Shown here: piece after piece, positions 12,500 through 58,257 of the stretch | How the letters are laid out: each line of letters starts with the position of its first letter | Position numbering within the stretch: the stretch's first letter is position 1 | Origin: Oscillatoria salina IIICB1 | Lineage (GTDB): Bacteria > Cyanobacteriota > Cyanobacteriia > Cyanobacteriales > SIO1D9 | NCBI RefSeq assembly: GCF_020144665.1 | Contig: NZ_JAAHBQ010000016.1 | Span: forward strand, 1-64,000 | Reading direction: 5' to 3' | DNA length: 64,000 nt | Position numbers and translations under genes: made by a program | The notes under the pieces: generated by a model | The model's input: the letters and a program-made list of their open reading frames with translations, nothing else | Told to the model about the DNA's origin: nothing | Databases searched by the model: none

Positions 12500-13303
12500 T
12501 TATCTACCCACCAACCAACCTAATCTAGTTGGCTGTTCATAAATCTTCTTCAAAGTATTAACATCTCGCGGAGAAATTGCAGGTGGATTTGCTACTTGAG
12601 AGTAATAAAGAGCATCGGTTTCTTGTTGGGAATGTCCCCAAATTCCTAAAGCGTGACCTATTTCATGACGCGCTGTAGCTAAAGTTTGTCTTTCGCTCAT
12701 TCCTGTACTTAATTCGATCGTCATTCGATGAGCTAAAATAAGTGAATTATCTTCTTTTACTCGCAGATAAAATTCATAGCTAGTGAGGGCGGTTCGAGCG
12801 CGTGGGGGCTTGGTTTCGCCTGTTTCCAAGTCAATTATTTCCCGTAAACTAGGACGCTTCCTTTTAATAATTAAATCGGCTTGTGCGACGTTTTCAACTT
12901 CTTGTAAAGGTAAATATTTGTCCCACTCTTCTATTGCTTTGGTAACTGCATTTACCCAATTTAAAAAGCGAATGTCACTAGCTACATTTTCATCGGGATT
13001 GAGTGGGCGATCGAGATAATATTTAATTGGAAAATTAGACCAAATTAAATAACCTAGAGGCGTAGATTTTACTTGGGAAAAATAGTCACCACTACGGTTT
13101 TTCCTCGACCATTGTGCTAGAGAAGGTGGTAAAGGATGAACTTTTAACTCTGGTAAAGAAGACCGGGAAGTTTCTGCGGCAATTTTCCCCGTACCTGCCA
13201 AAATAAAGAGTAAACTTGTGGCGATCGCGATTCCGAAAATACTCCAACGTCGCCACCATTTACACTTTCTCATACCATTAAAAGTATTCTTTGTCAACCA
13301 CAT
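12500..13303 (-). CDS. Secreted matrixin-like zinc metalloprotease
   Basis: 267 residues. A basic N-terminus and one hydrophobic stretch (about residues 21-40, IFGIAIATSLLFILAGTGK) form a signal peptide, so the enzyme should act outside the cytoplasm. The zinc motif is HEIGHALGIWGH at 213-224: HExxHxxG is intact, but the third His comes one residue later than in standard matrixins (HExxHxxGxxH). The usual Met-turn Met is Leu (DALYY). An alternative start at residue 11 (ATG at 13273) is equally possible. It is last in a gpmI-secG-protease run on the minus strand, 30 bases after secG. Substrate unknown. Confidence 0.78.
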   Translation of the reverse strand: MWLTKNTFNGMRKCKWWRRWSIFGIAIATSLLFILAGTGKIAAETSRSSLPELKVHPLPPSLAQWSRKNRSGDYFSQVKSTPLGYLIWSNFPIKYYLDRPLNPDENVASDIRFLNWVNAVTKAIEEWDKYLPLQEVENVAQADLIIKRKRPSLREIIDLETGETKPPRARTALTSYEFYLRVKEDNSLILAHRMTIELSTGMSERQTLATARHEIGHALGIWGHSQQETDALYYSQVANPPAISPRDVNTLKKIYEQPTRLGWLVGR

Positions 13304-13333
13304 AAAGCTGAATAATTCTTAAACTCTCAACTT

Positions 13334-13564
13334 TCAGCCAACCCAACCTGCACTCAAAACAATCGTTAAACCGATAAAAACGATACTCAGTATCCAAGTA
13401 ACGCGATTGAGAGTAGTTTCTGCACTCTTAGCGCTAGTAAACAATTGTGCTTGTCCACCAATACCACCAATTCCATCTCCTTTGGGAGAATGCAACAAAA
13501 CTAAAATAACCAGCAAAAAAGCTGAGACTACCCAGATAATTTGTAAAAGTTGGTAGACTGTCAT
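13334..13564 (-). CDS. secG: Preprotein translocase subunit SecG
   Basis: 76 residues with two membrane helices (LLQIIWVVSAFLLVILVLLH and TWILSIVFIGLTIVLSAGWV) joined by a Gly-rich loop (GIGGIGGQAQLF), the SecG hallmark. Auxiliary subunit of the SecYEG channel; SecY (26.2 kb) and SecE (60.8 kb) are also in this window. It lies 109 bases downstream of gpmI and 30 upstream of the protease gene, same strand. A GGAGATTTTTCCTCG sequence precedes the ATG. Confidence 0.93.
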   Translation of the reverse strand: MTVYQLLQIIWVVSAFLLVILVLLHSPKGDGIGGIGGQAQLFTSAKSAETTLNRVTWILSIVFIGLTIVLSAGWVG

Positions 13565-13609
13565 CGAGGAAAAATCTCCTTAGTAACCGAAAAATTTGTC
13601 CAAAGTTAA

Positions 13610-13634
13610 TAGCTAGTCATCAGAGGACTAGCTA
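13610..13634. terminator. Hairpin between gpmI and secG
   Basis: Nine-base inverted repeat TAGCTAGTC/GACTAGCTA around a 7-base loop. No T tract follows on either strand, so it may be an RNA-processing or attenuation structure rather than a full terminator. Confidence 0.4.
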
Positions 13635-13673
13635 TCACAAATTCAATCCTAACAGGTTGTCCCTGCTTTAAAC

Positions 13674-15275
13674 TCACAAAGAAATGCGCACTGGCGTACG
13701 ATTTGGTTTCACCTCAAACTCTACAGGAGTAATCATAGAACGACCAGTCATTTCCGTTGGTTGAGGTAATTGTAAGATTTCGAGAATAGTTGGGGCAATA
13801 TCTGATAAACGCCCATCAGATCGCAAAGCAACATCAGTTCCGTGTCCGGGAATTTTCCGACCTTCTCCTTCTACCAAGATAAACGGTACAGGATTAGTAG
13901 TATGTGCTGTCCAGGGATTTCCTTGTTCATCGCGCATATACTCAGCATTACCGTGATCGGCGATAATGATGGCAGTTCCGCCAACTTTGCTGATACTTTC
14001 CAGCAGTTGTCCCAAACATCGGTCTACAGTTTCAATTGCTTCAACTGTAGCTTCGATGTTACCAGTATGCCCGACCATATCAGGGTTAGCGTAATTAATC
14101 ACCACCAGAGAATATACTTGTTTCTCGATCGCCGTGCAAGCTATATCAGTAACAGGTTGAGCCGACATTTTCGGTTCGCGATCGTAGGTAGGAACCATTG
14201 GAGAGTTAATCAGTTCGCGATCTTCACCTGCAAACGGTTCCTCAATACCGCCATTAAAGAAATAGGTAACATGAGGATATTTTTCTGTTTCCGCAGTCCG
14301 AAACTGCCGCAAACCATTTCTAGCAATCACTTCACCCAAAATATTATTCAAATTTTGGGGTTCAAAAGCAACTGGAACAGGTAAACGGGAGTCGTACTGA
14401 GTGAAGGTAACAAAGCTGAGGGGTTCAATTTGTTCCCGTTCAAACCCTGAAAAGTCAGCTTGGACAAAAGCACTGGTTAATTGTCTCGCGCGATCGGGAC
14501 GGAAATTAAAGAAAATTATCCCATCCCCTGGTTTCACTGCGCCCGGAGCAACTCTAGTGGGAATGACAAACTCGTCAGTGACATCTTCAGCATAGCTATT
14601 TTTGAGAATTTGGACGGGAGAAATTCCTTCCCCCTCACCATCTCTCGTCATGAGATCGTATGCTTTTTTCGTTCGATCCCAGCGACGATCTCTATCCATT
14701 GCATAATAGCGACCACCGATCGTGACAATTTTGCCGATGCCGATTTTGTCTGTATAGTCTTGAATTTTTTGTATGACTTTGACTCCCTCCGTCGGATTTG
14801 TATCGCGACCGTCAGTAATAGCGTGGATACAGACATTCTCGATTTCTTGGGACTTAACTAAATCGAGAAGTCCCAGCAAATGATTCAAATGAGAATGTAC
14901 GCCTCCTTCAGAGCATAATCCGATGAGGTGAAGTTTTCCTTGGCGCGATCGCACTTCTTGGCAAATTTTTACCAGTGCTGGGTTACGCAACAGAGAACCG
15001 TCTTCGATTGCATCACTGATGCGTACTAATTCTTGCGGTACTACTCGTCCAGCCCCAATGTTCAGGTGTCCTACTTCCGAGTTACCCATTTGACCTTCTG
15101 GTAATCCTACATCCTTTCCAGAGGTACGAATTAAGGTATTCGGGTATGTTGCCCACAGACTATCCATTACTGGCGTAGACGCAGCAGCAATAGCATTTGC
15201 CTCCGTTGCTTCGCGATAACCCCAACCATCTAAAATAACTAGCACCACCGGAGATACAGGTGCTTGTTGTCTCAT
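13674..15275 (-). CDS. gpmI: Phosphoglycerate mutase, cofactor-independent
   Basis: 533 residues, interconverting 3- and 2-phosphoglycerate in glycolysis with Mn2+. The alkaline-phosphatase-fold metal site opens with D16 (LVILDGWGYR); the phospho-Ser nucleophile is S66 in MGNSEVGHLNIGAGR; IADHGNAEYM and HTTNPVPFI supply further ligands. Normal length for cyanobacteria. First gene of a minus-strand group with secG and the protease. Confidence 0.96.
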   Translation of the reverse strand: MRQQAPVSPVVLVILDGWGYREATEANAIAAASTPVMDSLWATYPNTLIRTSGKDVGLPEGQMGNSEVGHLNIGAGRVVPQELVRISDAIEDGSLLRNPALVKICQEVRSRQGKLHLIGLCSEGGVHSHLNHLLGLLDLVKSQEIENVCIHAITDGRDTNPTEGVKVIQKIQDYTDKIGIGKIVTIGGRYYAMDRDRRWDRTKKAYDLMTRDGEGEGISPVQILKNSYAEDVTDEFVIPTRVAPGAVKPGDGIIFFNFRPDRARQLTSAFVQADFSGFEREQIEPLSFVTFTQYDSRLPVPVAFEPQNLNNILGEVIARNGLRQFRTAETEKYPHVTYFFNGGIEEPFAGEDRELINSPMVPTYDREPKMSAQPVTDIACTAIEKQVYSLVVINYANPDMVGHTGNIEATVEAIETVDRCLGQLLESISKVGGTAIIIADHGNAEYMRDEQGNPWTAHTTNPVPFILVEGEGRKIPGHGTDVALRSDGRLSDIAPTILEILQLPQPTEMTGRSMITPVEFEVKPNRTPVRISL

Positions 15276-15604
15276 AATTGTTGCCCTATAGTGTCTATTT
15301 CACAGTCATGATAATAATAACAGGAGTTATCTGTTCGGACTGATTTTTACTTTTTTTTAGCTCTAGCAAAAATTTTTTGCCAAATTGAGCTTAATGTCAT
15401 CAATCTCTAACTTAAATTTCCTTTTCCGACTACATTTAACTGGTTTTACGCTTGTGAATATATGAGCGCAAGGGCTAGAAACAAGTATTTCTACTCCATT
15501 GCGCTGACAAATACAATTTTAGTTGGTAAACTGGACTTAGGTGAAATAAACTGGGAGAAACAGATAAATCTGGCATTATTTCACAAGGTTTTTAGTTAAT
15601 AGTT
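15276..15604. other. Intergenic region upstream of gpmI
   Basis: 329 bases between gpmI and the membrane-protein gene. AT-rich, with a CTCTAGC-containing stretch and long T/A runs. No convincing open frame, repeat or promoter could be fixed; it presumably carries the gpmI promoter. Confidence 0.35.
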
Positions 15605-16204
15605 TTAAACCCGAACATTAGGTTTTCTCGCTCCAGCGATCGCACCAATCATTGATGCTACTAAACCAAGGAGAGAACCAAAAATAAATGACCAAGCTAC
15701 TTTGGCTGCGTTAACCGTAGCTTGAGCAGTATTGAGATTGGGGACGTTATTTGGGATCTCTACGCCACCCGGTTCTTGCACTCGATCGATAATTTCTCCA
15801 GCATTGGAAACAACTACGCCGAAAGTACCGCTAACTCCACTAGCAAGTAGCCAGGAACTAATCGCTAAAGTAGTCGCCCACAGAATTGCTCCATTCAATA
15901 AAGCTGTTTTATTATTCATTGGTCCACAGGTACGAGCCATTACCCAAGCACCAATAAATAGGGAGATAAACAAACTAATAATTGACCAAATTCCTACTCC
16001 AAGTCCTACAGCACTAGCTTCATTTGTATCTGCTACGCTGAAGCCAATTGCTGCTCCTAATGCACTCAATACTAATTGAGTGCTAATGGCAATTACAATT
16101 CCTGCAAAAATTGGACCCCAGCGAACGCGATCGTGATAATCAACTACTGAATTAACGACTACAGGATCTCTAACATCTTCTCTGGTTTGCTCTGTGTATG
16201 ACAT
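15605..16204 (-). CDS. Hypothetical four-TM membrane protein
   Basis: 199 residues from the ATG at 16204, which follows GGGAGAGAGAAAGAG; a frame opening at 16249 adds 15 unlikely residues. A short hydrophilic N-terminus (SYTEQTREDV) is followed by four hydrophobic segments rich in small residues (for example AGIVIAISTQLVLSALGAAIG, IWSIISLFISLFIGAWVMA). A soluble loop lies between segments three and four, and the tail is basic (ARKPNVRV). It resembles YrzE/TIGR04086-type small membrane proteins, but I do not assign a function. Divergent from the PRC-barrel gene. Confidence 0.65.
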   Translation of the reverse strand: MSYTEQTREDVRDPVVVNSVVDYHDRVRWGPIFAGIVIAISTQLVLSALGAAIGFSVADTNEASAVGLGVGIWSIISLFISLFIGAWVMARTCGPMNNKTALLNGAILWATTLAISSWLLASGVSGTFGVVVSNAGEIIDRVQEPGGVEIPNNVPNLNTAQATVNAAKVAWSFIFGSLLGLVASMIGAIAGARKPNVRV

Positions 16205-16565
16205 TTTCTCTTTCTCTCTCCCGCTTCTTTTTTTGGCTAGTGATGACATTTAAAACTTTTAAAGTTAATTTTAAGAAAGATTTATTATTTTCATATCTGT
16301 CATGAGGTAGAAGGATAGATATTTGAATCTATTTAGTTGGTGAATTTTGATTTTTCTGCCTCGTCTTCAAAAACTGATTTTTTCAAGAAATATTCGCTCT
16401 AAAATCATCTATCGAAAGAGATAAATTATTTTCTGAATTATTAAAAATTATAATTAGGAGTGGGGATTAAATTAAACTAATCAGTCGCAGGAAGGAAGGA
16501 TTAAAATTTCGAGAAATATTAGAGTAAGAGCAGATCTAGAACTTAACCAAATTGGAATTTGTTAA
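16205..16565. other. Divergent intergenic region
   Basis: About 360 AT-rich bases between the divergent membrane-protein and PRC-barrel genes; it should hold both promoters. AATTAGGAGTGGGG at about 16452-16465 resembles a ribosome-binding site but no frame follows it. No unambiguous -35/-10 pair was found. Confidence 0.35.
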
Positions 16566-17549
16566 ATGGCTCTCCATAAAATAGAAGATTTTAATCCTCG
16601 ATACCGCGAAGAAGCTTTTGATGGTGAAGATTTCAAAGGTTTGAATGTTTATGCGGGTAGAACCGACGAAAAAATAGGTACAATTGATAACGTTCTCGTT
16701 GATGAAATGGGTCGTTTCCGCTATTTAGTAATTGATACTGGTTTCTGGATTTTTGGGAAAAAAGTTTTATTACCAGTTGGTCGCTGTCATGTTGATGCAG
16801 ATGCACAAAAAGTTTATGCGGTGGGACTTGCGACTAAAGATCAAGCGGAAAATTTACCTCCTTATGATGAAACTATCAACTTGGATTACAATTATGAAGA
16901 GCGAGTGCGGGATATTTACCGTAAGCCACCTGTAGGAAGGTCTTCCCGAGTAGAAATGACACCACCTGTGGAAGGTTCTGGAGTGGTAGGATCGAGAGCG
17001 AAAGTACCGCAACCGGAAAGCCCAAGGATCGAGAGCGAAGTTCACGAGTACAAGGAAAAACCTGTAACTGCGGAACGAGAACAAGTTCGCGACGATCGCG
17101 ATCGATACAGATACGATCTCGAACCGGAACTTTATCAAATGAGCGAGATCGATCATCAAAAGTTCAAGCTTTATGAAGAACGACTGGTTGCGAGTAAAAG
17201 TCGTCGTCAAGCGGGTGAAGTCGAAATTGGTAAACGGGTGGAAACAGACACCGCACGCGCATCGGTTCCAGTGGAAAAAGAACGAGTTATCATCGAACGC
17301 AATGCTCCCAAAAAGGGTAAGATTCCCGCTAAACCAGGTGAAGCTGACTTCCATTCAGGAAAAGTAGCGGAAATGGAAGTTTATGAAGAAAAAGCTGAGA
17401 TTGACAAGCAAGCATTCGTCCGCGAAGAAGTCGATATCCACAAAGAAGTCGATACAGAACAAGTAGAAGCTACCGAAAAACTTCGTCGCGAAGAATTAGA
17501 TATCGATACTGAAGGACGTTCAGTAGTCAACCGCGATCGCCGTTCCTAA
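16566..17549 (+). CDS. PRC-barrel and DUF2382 (YsnF/AvaK-like) protein
   Basis: 327 residues, strongly charged. An N-terminal PRC barrel (about 20-100: LNVYAGRTDEKIGTIDNVLV, FRYLVIDTGFWIFGKKVLLP) is followed by a linker of Glu/Arg/Pro residues and a C-terminal DUF2382 domain (about 200-310: LYEERLVASKSRRQAGEVEI, VPVEKERVIIER, then repeated Glu-Val-Asp-Ile-His units). Proteins of this plan include AvaK of Anabaena akinetes and general-stress proteins of other bacteria. No signal peptide. Function is unproven; a stress role is inference from family and from the adjacent envelope-type genes. Confidence 0.8.
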   Translation: MALHKIEDFNPRYREEAFDGEDFKGLNVYAGRTDEKIGTIDNVLVDEMGRFRYLVIDTGFWIFGKKVLLPVGRCHVDADAQKVYAVGLATKDQAENLPPYDETINLDYNYEERVRDIYRKPPVGRSSRVEMTPPVEGSGVVGSRAKVPQPESPRIESEVHEYKEKPVTAEREQVRDDRDRYRYDLEPELYQMSEIDHQKFKLYEERLVASKSRRQAGEVEIGKRVETDTARASVPVEKERVIIERNAPKKGKIPAKPGEADFHSGKVAEMEVYEEKAEIDKQAFVREEVDIHKEVDTEQVEATEKLRREELDIDTEGRSVVNRDRRS

Positions 17550-17615
17550 TTTGTTTAAACTGGCGCGATCGCCCATCTATCACCAAAGTTTAGCAAAATT
17601 AAATAGGGAGGAAAA

Positions 17616-18569
17616 ATGAATAATATTTTGCATTATCTCTCTGCAAGTGCAGTAATGCTAGCAATAGCAATGGGTTTTTGTACAATTGATATTAGCGAAA
17701 CCTCGGCTCAAGATTCACCTGAAGTTGGTTTTCCTGATGTAACTGCTGATTATTGGGCAAATCCATTTATTCAAGTTTTAGCTGAACAAGATATTATTGT
17801 TGGCTATCCTGATGGCACTTTTCGACCCACAGAAAATGTCGATCGCGATGAATTTGCCGCCATGATTCGCCAAGCTTTTAATCAAGAACAAATTAAAAAA
17901 ATTCCTAGCGGTAGTGTTTTTAATGATGTTCCTGCTGATTATTGGGCTGCACCTCCAATTGAAGAAGCTTATGAAACAGGCTTCCTGAAAGGTTATCCAG
18001 AACAGATGTTTCTTCCCAAACAAGAAATCACGAGAGTTGAAGCCTTAGTTTCTTTAACAAACGGTTTGGATATTAATTACGACCAACCCATTTCAACCGA
18101 AACTTTTGCAACTCCAGAACAAACAGCTTTAGAAATTGAAACTGCTCCTAAAAAACGTCGAGTCATCAAAAATCGTTTGGCGTTTCCCCTCGCATTTACA
18201 GCTTTAATGCAACCAATTTTAAGCATTCCCAAAGCAGTTGCTCAACCCGTACAAACTGAACCTGAAACTATCGCAGCCGCAGGACAAACTCGCACACCAG
18301 GGGCTACCGCAGCAGATATTATTCAGTTTTATGAAGACGCTGACCAAATTCCTGAATACGCTATTGATGATGTAGCCGCCGCAACTAAATCCAATATTGT
18401 TGTTAACTATCCCGAACCTCAATTTCTCAATCCGAATGAGTTTCTTAACCGAGGTGCAGCCGCAGCTTTAATTCATCAAGCAATGGTTTATCAAGGTAAA
18501 TTACAGCCTCTCGAAGCTAATGTTAATGCGGCGGAATACATTATTACCGATACATCTCAAACTGAATAA
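17616..18569 (+). CDS. Secreted S-layer-homology (SLH) domain protein
   Basis: 317 residues. The signal peptide covers about residues 1-33 (hydrophobic SASAVMLAIAMGF, cleavage near TSAQ). SLH repeat 1 starts at FPDVTADYWANPFI with GYPDGTFRP. Repeat 2 starts at FNDVPADYWAAPPI with GYPEQMFLP. A third, degenerate repeat near the C-terminus reads YEDADQIPEYAIDDV and NYPEPQFLN. SLH domains bind pyruvylated cell-wall polymer. No porin barrel or enzyme domain follows, so this is a small wall-anchored protein of unknown role. AGGGAGGAAAA precedes the ATG. It lies 66 bases after the PRC-barrel gene, same strand. Confidence 0.85.
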   Translation: MNNILHYLSASAVMLAIAMGFCTIDISETSAQDSPEVGFPDVTADYWANPFIQVLAEQDIIVGYPDGTFRPTENVDRDEFAAMIRQAFNQEQIKKIPSGSVFNDVPADYWAAPPIEEAYETGFLKGYPEQMFLPKQEITRVEALVSLTNGLDINYDQPISTETFATPEQTALEIETAPKKRRVIKNRLAFPLAFTALMQPILSIPKAVAQPVQTEPETIAAAGQTRTPGATAADIIQFYEDADQIPEYAIDDVAAATKSNIVVNYPEPQFLNPNEFLNRGAAAALIHQAMVYQGKLQPLEANVNAAEYIITDTSQTE

Positions 18570-56162: not shown

Positions 56163-56168
56163 TTTTTT

Positions 56169-56187
56169 AGGTGGGTATTGCCCACCT
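56169..56187. repeat. GGTGGGTATTGCCCACC palindrome (left flank of cassette)
   Basis: AGGTGGGTATTGCCCACCT, 7 bases after the guaB3 stop, followed by ATTTGCTTTTTTTG on the plus strand: a good rho-independent terminator for guaB3. It overlaps the stop codon of the convergent nuclease-like gene. A near-identical palindrome lies at 58241-58257 on the other side of the two-gene cassette. Confidence 0.65.
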
Positions 56188-56737
56188 ATTTGCTTTTTTT
56201 GCGTTTACCTTTTTTATATTCACGTGGTATACCTCCTGTACCTCTTAAAAAGTTACCAAAATCTGTACTTCTCCCGTTATGATCGTAATTATTTTTCCCA
56301 AAAGCATTATCTAACTTATCTTTATATTCTTGATATTCTTTTGGCACAGAACCTTCTAAAATAATAAAAGCTTTGCTCAAATAATTAGATTGATTAAGAT
56401 ATTTGTTTTTATTCAAAAATTGCTGAAAATATTTACTTGTATTAATTACTTGCTCAACAGCATCTCCTAGCTTACCACTACGTTTTAATTCTACAAAGCA
56501 AATTATTCTCCGATCTTCTTTAGCATAAAAAACAAGCAAATCGCAAATTCTTGTCTTCTCTTTGTTCATTCCTAATAATTGTCGCAATTTACACTGAGTA
56601 TTTACTTGGTCATCTATCGAGAAAAAAAGAATTGTTTCTCCACTTTCTGGCTGAATGTTAATTGAAACACCTTCTTCTTTGAAACTTGTTTTACCAGGAA
56701 GCAAACATCCACTTAACATTAAAATATCAAAACACAC
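56186..56737 (-). CDS. Putative PD-(D/E)xK-type nuclease partner of the AAA ATPase
   Basis: 183 residues, GTG start at 56737, 32 bases after the ATPase stop. No family is recognised outright. A motif pattern typical of restriction-like nucleases is visible: D66 at the end of a beta strand (ICDLLVF), then E83-L-K85 in the next strand (RIICFVELKRSG), then Q96 in a following helix (DAVEQVINTSKYF). The C-terminus is very basic (EYKKGKRKKSK) and could bind nucleic acid. AT-rich, Lys/Asn-rich composition unlike the neighbours. Together with the ATPase it forms a likely two-gene defence module (inference). Confidence 0.6.
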   Translation of the reverse strand: MCFDILMLSGCLLPGKTSFKEEGVSINIQPESGETILFFSIDDQVNTQCKLRQLLGMNKEKTRICDLLVFYAKEDRRIICFVELKRSGKLGDAVEQVINTSKYFQQFLNKNKYLNQSNYLSKAFIILEGSVPKEYQEYKDKLDNAFGKNNYDHNGRSTDFGNFLRGTGGIPREYKKGKRKKSK

Positions 56738-56769
56738 AGTTTCTTCAACAACTTTAAAGTATTAACAAT

Positions 56770-58173
56770 CTAAGAGAAAATGTGGGAAATATCATCAGAA
56801 ACATCAGCAAAACTACCCCAATCTATTCTTCCTTTTTCGCCTAAAATGTTTTTGGCTGTCCCGTCTTCAAATAAGTAAACCGATACCTTTTCTTGTGGAA
56901 TGAAAGCTTCTGTACGTTCTAAATAAAAACGTTCTTTGATACTTTCTTTATCTTCACATCTAGCAGCTTGCATTAAATTGGATAAATGATCGACAATATA
57001 AGGACTATGAGTAGTTATTAATACATTTAGTCCAGCCTCTACTAACGTGGCTAAAAATTCAATTATTTCAACTTGAGCCGCCGGATGTAAGTTCATTTCC
57101 GGCTCATCAATAATTATTAATTCATTGGGTTCAGCTAGATAACGTAAGCAAAGAACTAAGGGAGCAAGTTCCTTTACCATTGAGGAAACAATTGGCATTT
57201 CTAACTTATAATTTTCTGATACTTCAAAAAGCAATTCTTTCTGTAATCCTGAGCTATCAAAATCTACTTTTCCTTGTAAAATTTCCTTTTCTAATAGTTG
57301 AGAAAGTTGTATGTATTTATAAATTATTTGATGGTTTTTCCCTAACTTTTCTCGTTCTAGCTTATTTCCGTTTAAAATTCGATGAATAATTCTTAAAAAA
57401 TATCTTACTGGTTGATAAACTAAATATTTTGTATTTTGCCGCTTTTGTTCTTCAATTGCTGCTTGAGCAGTGGTCGCATTAAAGTTTTGAAAAGGTAAGG
57501 TAATAAATGTAGTTCTTTCTGTCGGAAATATATACAGTTGTTTAAACAAAGAATTATGAATCGCTTGAAATATCACATTGTATATAAAGCTAATAAGAAT
57601 TTGTTTGGGAAGCTTTTGGAGAATTTCTCGATCCGAATTAGTAGAAATCCTATAAAAATAAAGAGTATAATCGTCGGATTCTTTTAAACTATTTAGTAAA
57701 GAAAAATTTTCTTTTGAGTCAGGAGAAATTTTTGAATCTATACTTAAATTATAAACTGCTTGTTTTAACTTTTGTTTGGTATCCTGTAAATCAAAACTAA
57801 CCTTTAATTTTTGAAAATTTGCTCGTTCGGTAGCCAAAAAATTATTCATCCAATTAGGTGTCAACTTGGCTAATTCGTTGAAGTATATTTCTGCGTATTT
57901 ATCTACAAAATCAACTAAATTAATTTGAGCATTACCTTCATTTATTATTTGTTCAATAGCAGTATCAATAGGTGGGTAAAGTTGCTGAGTTATATTTTTA
58001 TTTTCAAGATATGTTGTTAAATACTGTTCATATCCGTAAGAACTAAAAATGGATGCTAAAGTGTAAGCTGTCCAAGTTTTTCCAGTGCCATTATGACCAA
58101 TAAACACTGTAAGAGGCTTTAAATCTATCTCAGCTTTTTCGATAACGCCTAAGTTACAAATTTTTATTTTCAT
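56770..58173 (-). CDS. ABC-type AAA ATPase (AAA_15/21, OLD/AriA-like)
   Basis: 467 residues. Walker A GHNGTGKT at 26-33 directly after the N-terminal strand (KICNLGVIEKAEIDLKPL). The long middle insertion is helical. The ABC signature-like region is SSMVKELAPLVL, Walker B is LIIIDEPEMNLHP at 352-364 and the switch His is H389 (LITTHSPYIV). No TOPRIM domain follows, so the nuclease activity of OLD proteins is not in this chain. The gene downstream supplies a D...ExK candidate instead. No HIP1 octamer was seen in either gene, suggesting recent acquisition. Such ATPases act as sensors or motors in several phage-defence systems. Confidence 0.85.
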   Translation of the reverse strand: MKIKICNLGVIEKAEIDLKPLTVFIGHNGTGKTWTAYTLASIFSSYGYEQYLTTYLENKNITQQLYPPIDTAIEQIINEGNAQINLVDFVDKYAEIYFNELAKLTPNWMNNFLATERANFQKLKVSFDLQDTKQKLKQAVYNLSIDSKISPDSKENFSLLNSLKESDDYTLYFYRISTNSDREILQKLPKQILISFIYNVIFQAIHNSLFKQLYIFPTERTTFITLPFQNFNATTAQAAIEEQKRQNTKYLVYQPVRYFLRIIHRILNGNKLEREKLGKNHQIIYKYIQLSQLLEKEILQGKVDFDSSGLQKELLFEVSENYKLEMPIVSSMVKELAPLVLCLRYLAEPNELIIIDEPEMNLHPAAQVEIIEFLATLVEAGLNVLITTHSPYIVDHLSNLMQAARCEDKESIKERFYLERTEAFIPQEKVSVYLFEDGTAKNILGEKGRIDWGSFADVSDDISHIFS

Positions 58174-58240
58174 GGCAATTTTTTAACTTAGCTGAGTGAA
58201 AAATAAATAATTTACTGTTTTCAGTTTACCAGTTTTGATG

Positions 58241-58257
58241 GGTGGGCAATGCCCACC
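58241..58257. repeat. GGTGGGCAATGCCCACC palindrome (right flank of cassette)
   Basis: Perfect 8-base arms GGTGGGCA/TGCCCACC around one base, 68 bases upstream of the ATPase start and 14 bases beyond the ubiH-like stop. Differs at only two positions from the palindrome at 56169-56187. May be the terminator of the hydroxylase gene and a repeat used in insertion of the cassette. Confidence 0.6.

Follow-up and report, generated by a model that had tools for sequence, protein, structure and literature searches.

The window analyzed here is a stretch of 64,000 nucleotides from Oscillatoria salina IIICB1 (contig NZ_JAAHBQ010000016.1, positions 1 to 64,000). A two-gene cassette on the minus strand is located toward its end, with guaB on one side and a ubiH-like gene on the other. 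The gene for an ABC ATPase comes first, and the gene for a small predicted nuclease follows 32 bases downstream. The features of the cassette and its edges are as follows.

56770..58173, minus strand: OLD-type ABC ATPase, 467 aa, ATG start (PADLOC, Pfam, alignment and tree).
56773..56970, minus strand: C-terminal tail of the ATPase (residues ~402–467), KVSVYLFEDG...GRIDWGSFADVSDDI (tail profile comparison).
56186..56737, minus strand: predicted PD-(D/E)xK nuclease, 183 aa, GTG start, the putative effector (invariant residues, homology, AlphaFold2 model and structural matches).
56738..56769, minus strand: intergenic gap of 32 bases in a probable operon (order and adjacency kept in 9/9 intact relatives).
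56168..56188, no strand assigned: palindrome TAGGTGGGTATTGCCCACCTA at the 3' boundary of the cassette; a run of T follows it on the plus strand, resembling a terminator of guaB.
58241..58257, no strand assigned: the palindrome again, as GGTGGGCAATGCCCACC, at the 5' boundary of the cassette.

These gene boundaries agree with the first-pass annotation, which had described a two-gene cassette with a 183-residue protein encoded 32 bases 3' of the ATPase. The GTG start of the nuclease aligns with residue M1 in all nine relatives. The cassette is bracketed by the two palindrome copies, which follow the pattern GGTGGG[C/T]A[A/T]TGCCCACC, with 7 sites in the 5.96 Mb genome. The palindromes were considered as cassette-specific insertion ends, and this idea was dropped. 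The copies inspected outside the window are located at the 3' ends of unrelated genes, and none of the relatives' cassettes carries the palindromes.

The ATPase contains a Walker A motif, GHNGTGKT (with K32), a Walker B motif, LIIIDEPEMNLHP (with E357), and an H-loop histidine, H389. Further features are a conserved arginine, R220, in the sequence PTERT, and a signature region at S330-S331. The motifs are intact in all the relatives in the alignment, and the ATPases of the nine intact relatives have 47–57% identity. The Pfam domains of the protein are all of AAA type (AAA_15 with an E value of 7.7e-25, plus AAA_21), with no TOPRIM domain, in agreement with its earlier description as an AAA_15/21-type ABC ATPase with Walker A, Walker B and His-switch but without TOPRIM. 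Among the PADLOC models, the ATPase matches PD-T4-4_A (1.2e-56), PDC-M47A (2.6e-47) and PDC-M29A (1.4e-15), with weaker matches to OLD, PARIS (AriA), Gabija (GajA) and Septu (PtuA). The ATPase is probably the sensor or regulator of the pair.

The 183-residue partner gives no Pfam domain, and the NCBIfam matches are weak and all below the cut-off. A PADLOC search of the pair had been proposed as a check; it gave the strong PD-T4-4_A match for the ATPase, but for the nuclease the matches are weak, the best being PDC-M29B (5e-6), followed by PDC-M47B (0.0055) and PD-T4-4_B (0.006). Residues D66, E83, K85 and Q96 are invariant among ten aligned homologues, with identities down to 44%, as are E34, D42, R52 and C65. 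The D66, E83-x-K85 and Q96 positions and their PD-(D/E)xK spacing had been read correctly from the window, and their invariance across the ten homologues indicates that the motif is not due to chance. A profile of the nuclease family matches that of a family of ~150-aa nucleases with a probability of 97% and an E value of 1.2e-10 (0.74 for the reversed control). The corresponding E values for PDC-M47B and PD-T4-4_B are 0.004 and 0.0095, respectively.

A structure model of the nuclease was calculated with AlphaFold2 from a five-sequence alignment, with a pLDDT of 71.3 and a pTM of 0.74 (an earlier model from two sequences, with a pLDDT of 47, was set aside). The predicted strands cover residues 34–40, 67–73 (directly after D66), 76–85 (with E83 and K85 at its end) and 120–127, and the predicted helices cover residues 90–110 (with Q96) and 135–146. 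The order of these elements is that of the PD-(D/E)xK core. In the model D66 immediately precedes one strand and the ExK motif is at the end of the next, and both are conserved in the alignment, as is characteristic of this superfamily. A search with Foldseek against the PDB and viral models gives nothing with an E value below 0.001. With VIA-align, the first 38 matches are all PD-(D/E)xK-type nucleases or close families, with Z scores between 4.7 and 7.0, all below 8. They include Can2/Card1/Cdn1-type nucleases, VC1899, Cfr10I, Bse634I, BsoBI, FokI, BsmI, Nt.BspD6I, EndoMS, PaqCI, XisH-type proteins and BamHI. Structure prediction for a restriction-endonuclease fold, suggested earlier as a check, thus recovers almost only PD-(D/E)xK nucleases. 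Each of these Z scores is weak on its own. Since the pure list of matches points the same way as the motif and the homology in sequence, we read the 183-residue protein as a PD-(D/E)xK nuclease, with its fold taken from a predicted model.

The set of homologues comprises nine pairs; the sources are eight genomes of cyanobacteria and a metagenome bin of Desulfobacterales. The ATPase gene is followed by the nuclease gene, adjacent and on the same strand, in all nine intact relatives, and a remnant of the nuclease alone is found in a tenth genome. The pair is present in 2/60 relatives and in 10/386 cyanobacterial genomes (~2.6%, with the window's own counted). The guaB gene is found in all 30 genomes searched; the cassette follows it only in the genome of the window and is absent from this position in 29/29 relatives. 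No clean empty site was obtained, with guaB universal and ubiH not adjoining it in the relatives checked. The pair is accessory. Searches of phages, plasmids and viral contigs with the nuclease gave no match.

Both genes are under purifying selection, with dN/dS values (NG86) of 0.20–0.34 for the nuclease and 0.20–0.42 for the ATPase, the comparison of the window with the relative L032 being near synonymous saturation. The GC content of the cassette is 30%, compared to 42% for the window, and is in the lowest 0.2% of stretches of equal length. Its GC3 is 0.20, compared to 0.36–0.39 in the flanking genes. These low values suggest that the cassette was horizontally acquired, as judged from base composition. 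The HIP1 octamer, GCGATCGC, is absent from the cassette, as had been noted before. However, only 2.1 copies are expected and 7% of stretches of equal length likewise have none, so the gap carries little weight, and HIP1 depletion was rejected as a sign of foreign origin.

The copy in the window is surrounded by housekeeping genes (R3H ATPase, guaB, ubiH and ribosomal protein genes) and is not in a defence island. The surroundings differ among the relatives. In five genomes of one family (L033–L037), the pair occupies a common slot by a calcineurin-like phosphoesterase gene and nadA, while the genes on the opposite side differ; this may be an insertion slot or may reflect vertical inheritance. 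In another relative (L039, positions 12558–18141 and beyond), the pair is ~2.6 kb from a CRISPR array with 16 repeats, and the array is followed by a HmaB/DUF1156-type methylase and then a PbeA-like gene. The Desulfobacterales copy is followed by a gene for a CHAT/NB-ARC/TPR protein, and PIN-domain toxin genes are near the pairs of several relatives. Co-occurrence with defence genes, another check put forward by the first-pass annotation, is therefore partial: the association with defence islands is real in some genomes, but it is not general and does not extend to the copy in the window.

Anti-phage activity has been demonstrated for two systems of related architecture, PD-T4-4 and WonAB (PMC9519451, PMC12137116). 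WonAB is a WASA OLD-ABC ATPase nuclease system, with K34, R182, E300 and H333 as the key residues of WonA and Lys71 as the catalytic lysine of WonB (PMC12137116). Neither gene is dispensable for its defence, which also depends on ATP binding, on ATP hydrolysis and on the lysine of the nuclease. Infected cells are arrested without lysis, and phage DNA replication continues but no capsids are produced. Overproduction of WonB blocks translation without loss of DNA, and only together with active WonA, and the authors suggested rRNA or tRNA as the target (PMC12137116). In a structural model, WonB is seated on the dimerized C-terminal extensions of WonA.

Among the relatives, one group of ATPases (the L016 group) is paired with nucleases of ~140–157 aa, similar in size to WonB. 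The key residues of the L016 ATPase are K34, R181, E303 and H338, and the nuclease lysine of the group is at positions 69–84. Because this spacing matches the published positions in WonA and WonB, the L016 group was taken as a stand-in of the WonAB class, an assignment from residue spacing and not from sequence comparison. A complete WonAB-like pair, with an ATPase of 432 aa and a nuclease of 140 aa, is also found in a viral contig (L124:1664-3384, IMGVR_UViG_3300048924_000317).

The best explanation, to which we assign a probability of about 0.64, mechanism included, is that the pair entered by horizontal transfer and serves as a two-gene anti-phage system, belonging to the 'OLD-ABC ATPase plus PD-(D/E)xK nuclease' class and, within it, to a branch of its own next to PD-T4-4 and WonAB. 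The ATPase would form an ATP-dependent head-to-tail dimer, with the small nuclease carried on the C-terminal tails of the dimer. The tail may be the dock of the nuclease, as read from the structural model of WonAB. A cue from infection, probably a DNA structure or state that arises from the phage takeover, would alter the state of the ATPase and license the nuclease. The nuclease would bind metal through D66, E83 and K85 and cut a nucleic acid required for growth, and the cell would stop before phage production. An RNA target and an abortive outcome are carried over by analogy from WonAB, whose ATPase core belongs to another clade, judging from its stand-ins.

The analysis supports the pairing, the conserved catalytic residues, the fold prediction, the homology, the sporadic distribution and the purifying selection. 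The ATPase-sensor/nuclease-effector defence module proposed earlier stands as a candidate on the pairing, the invariant motif, the PADLOC matches, the fold and the homology, but its association with defence islands is only partial. Counted against the best explanation are the housekeeping context of the window copy, the slot common to five relatives, the VIA-align Z scores below 8 and the model from five sequences.

The main rival is direct restriction, as most of the structural matches are DNA nucleases. Here a complex of the ATPase and the nuclease would recognize the DNA of phages or plasmids and cut it, leaving the host alive with no arrest of the cell. The closest solved folds are mostly those of DNA nucleases (Cfr10I, Bse634I, FokI, EndoMS), and OLD, Gabija and Septu, which are kin of the window ATPase, act on DNA. 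However, the growth arrest by WonAB, which is a close functional model, involves no DNA degradation, its nuclease blocks translation when overproduced, and there is no methylase or other self/non-self mark encoded beside the window pair. We regard direct restriction as unlikely.

An ATPase-gated nuclease could also process damaged DNA ends in a module for repair or stress, with no role in defence. Repair is the role of ABC ATPase-nuclease pairs like Rad50-Mre11, and the slot by the phosphoesterase gene and nadA in five relatives has ordinary genes around it. This explanation is quite improbable for a pair that is present in only ~2.6% of the sampled cyanobacterial genomes, is not beside guaB in any of the 29 relatives checked, has a low GC content and has defence models as its nearest families. 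Even less credible is a toxin-antitoxin system, with the ATPase serving merely to neutralize the nuclease and with phage defence as a side effect, though the two-gene operon and the PIN-type toxin genes near several relatives would suit it. The toxicity of WonB needs the ATPase of WonA, which argues against simple sequestration, and the ATPase motifs, intact in all relatives, suggest active gating.

Within the anti-phage reading, the ATPase core and its tail show different affinities. The core of the window family can be aligned over its full length with both PDC-M47A (E value of 1e-37 over 353 columns) and PD-T4-4_A (1e-32), compared to 9e-22 over only 108 columns for the L016 group. In a tree of the ATPase core, which is unrooted and has long branches, the window family joins PD-T4-4 and PDC-M47 with support values of 100/99, beside and not inside their clade, and is apart from the L016 group and from PDC-M29A. 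In comparison, the profile of the tail (after the H-loop) is closest to that of the L016 group (1e-8), followed by PD-T4-4 (3e-5) and PDC-M47 (0.007). Over six classes, tail similarity is correlated with nuclease similarity with a rho of 0.71 (Mantel p 0.006), and core similarity with a rho of 0.59 (p 0.018), so that the tail tracks the nuclease somewhat better. Given the small sample and a split point picked by the analyst, joint travel of the tail and the nuclease is supported by these sequence comparisons but not proven. It fits the model of WonB on the C-terminal extensions of WonA, and suggests that the short tail of the ATPase decides which nuclease is used.

A more tentative proposal, which we regard as somewhat doubtful, is that the window pair represents a natural chimaera and the class is modular, with a core (the sensor) of the PD-T4-4/PDC-M47 lineage, and a tail and nuclease (the effector) co-inherited as a unit of a WonAB-like lineage. 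If so, effectors would be exchanged jointly with their docking tails. A phage-type viral contig (L046:1671-2582, IMGVR_UViG_3300019122_000810) encodes a shortened ATPase of 303 aa with its middle region missing and GPNNSNKT as its Walker A motif. Over its final 158 residues in the alignment, a stretch that takes in the tail, it is 40% identical to the window ATPase. There is no adjoining nuclease gene, and a tape-measure gene is located downstream. This protein is possibly a decoy for the effector, or a relic.

Compared to known systems, the pair represents a branch that had no name so far, within a class of immune systems described only recently, and is a candidate immune system in cyanobacteria. 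The first-pass annotation could match the effector to no named partner. This has been superseded, as PD-T4-4 and WonAB share the architecture and the nuclease has homology to those that accompany such ATPases. Pairs of this kind are readily overlooked, because none of the models applied (Pfam, NCBIfam, PADLOC) recognizes the nuclease of the branch confidently. Another unnamed type of ATPase/nuclease pair (L105, L106, L110 and L115) has a nuclease of ~196 aa with the sequence CFVEFK, which is likewise related to this nuclease superfamily.

OLD, PARIS, Gabija and Septu, named earlier as kin, share the OLD-type ABC ATPase motifs and are relatives of the ATPase, but PD-T4-4 and WonAB are nearer. 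The window pair has no TOPRIM, AriB, GajB or HNH partner: Pfam finds no TOPRIM in the ATPase (where OLD and GajA have it), and the partner, which in PARIS is the TOPRIM protein AriB, is modeled here as a PD-(D/E)xK nuclease. PDC-M29 provides the best PADLOC match of the nuclease, and genuine PDC-M29 pairs are found in related cyanobacteria. However, these score ~1e-70, compared to 5e-6 and 1.4e-15 for the window nuclease and ATPase, and their ATPases form a separate clade.

PD-T4-4 and PDC-M47 also have two genes, for an OLD-type ABC ATPase and then a PD-(D/E)xK nuclease. Genuine pairs from related cyanobacteria score far higher on their own models, with 1e-158/1e-100 for PD-T4-4 and 8e-232/3e-76 for PDC-M47, compared to 1e-56/0.006 and 3e-47/0.0055 for the window pair, which therefore belongs to neither. 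For the nuclease this corresponds to 0.006 against 1e-100 on PD-T4-4_B, and 0.0055 against 3.5e-76 on PDC-M47B. One relative genome has a genuine PD-T4-4 system alongside a pair of the window type. The nuclease and ATPase tail of the window family are closer to another family than to PD-T4-4.

WonAB and other 'OLD-ABC ATPase + novel REase' operons have the same layout as the window pair, with the gene for an OLD-type ABC ATPase followed by that for a small PD-(D/E)xK nuclease. The nuclease is homologous to those of the L016-group stand-in (E value of 1.2e-10), with which the ATPase also has its C-terminal tail in common (1e-8). In contrast, the ATPase core is outside the WonA-like clade (100/99, with WonA represented by the stand-in), and the window nuclease is longer, with 183 aa compared to the 16.1 kDa of WonB, carries an insert ahead of D66 and ends in a basic tail. 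As the tested features fit neither fully, the pair is filed as neither PD-T4-4 nor WonAB, and these two separately described systems are linked by one intermediate branch.
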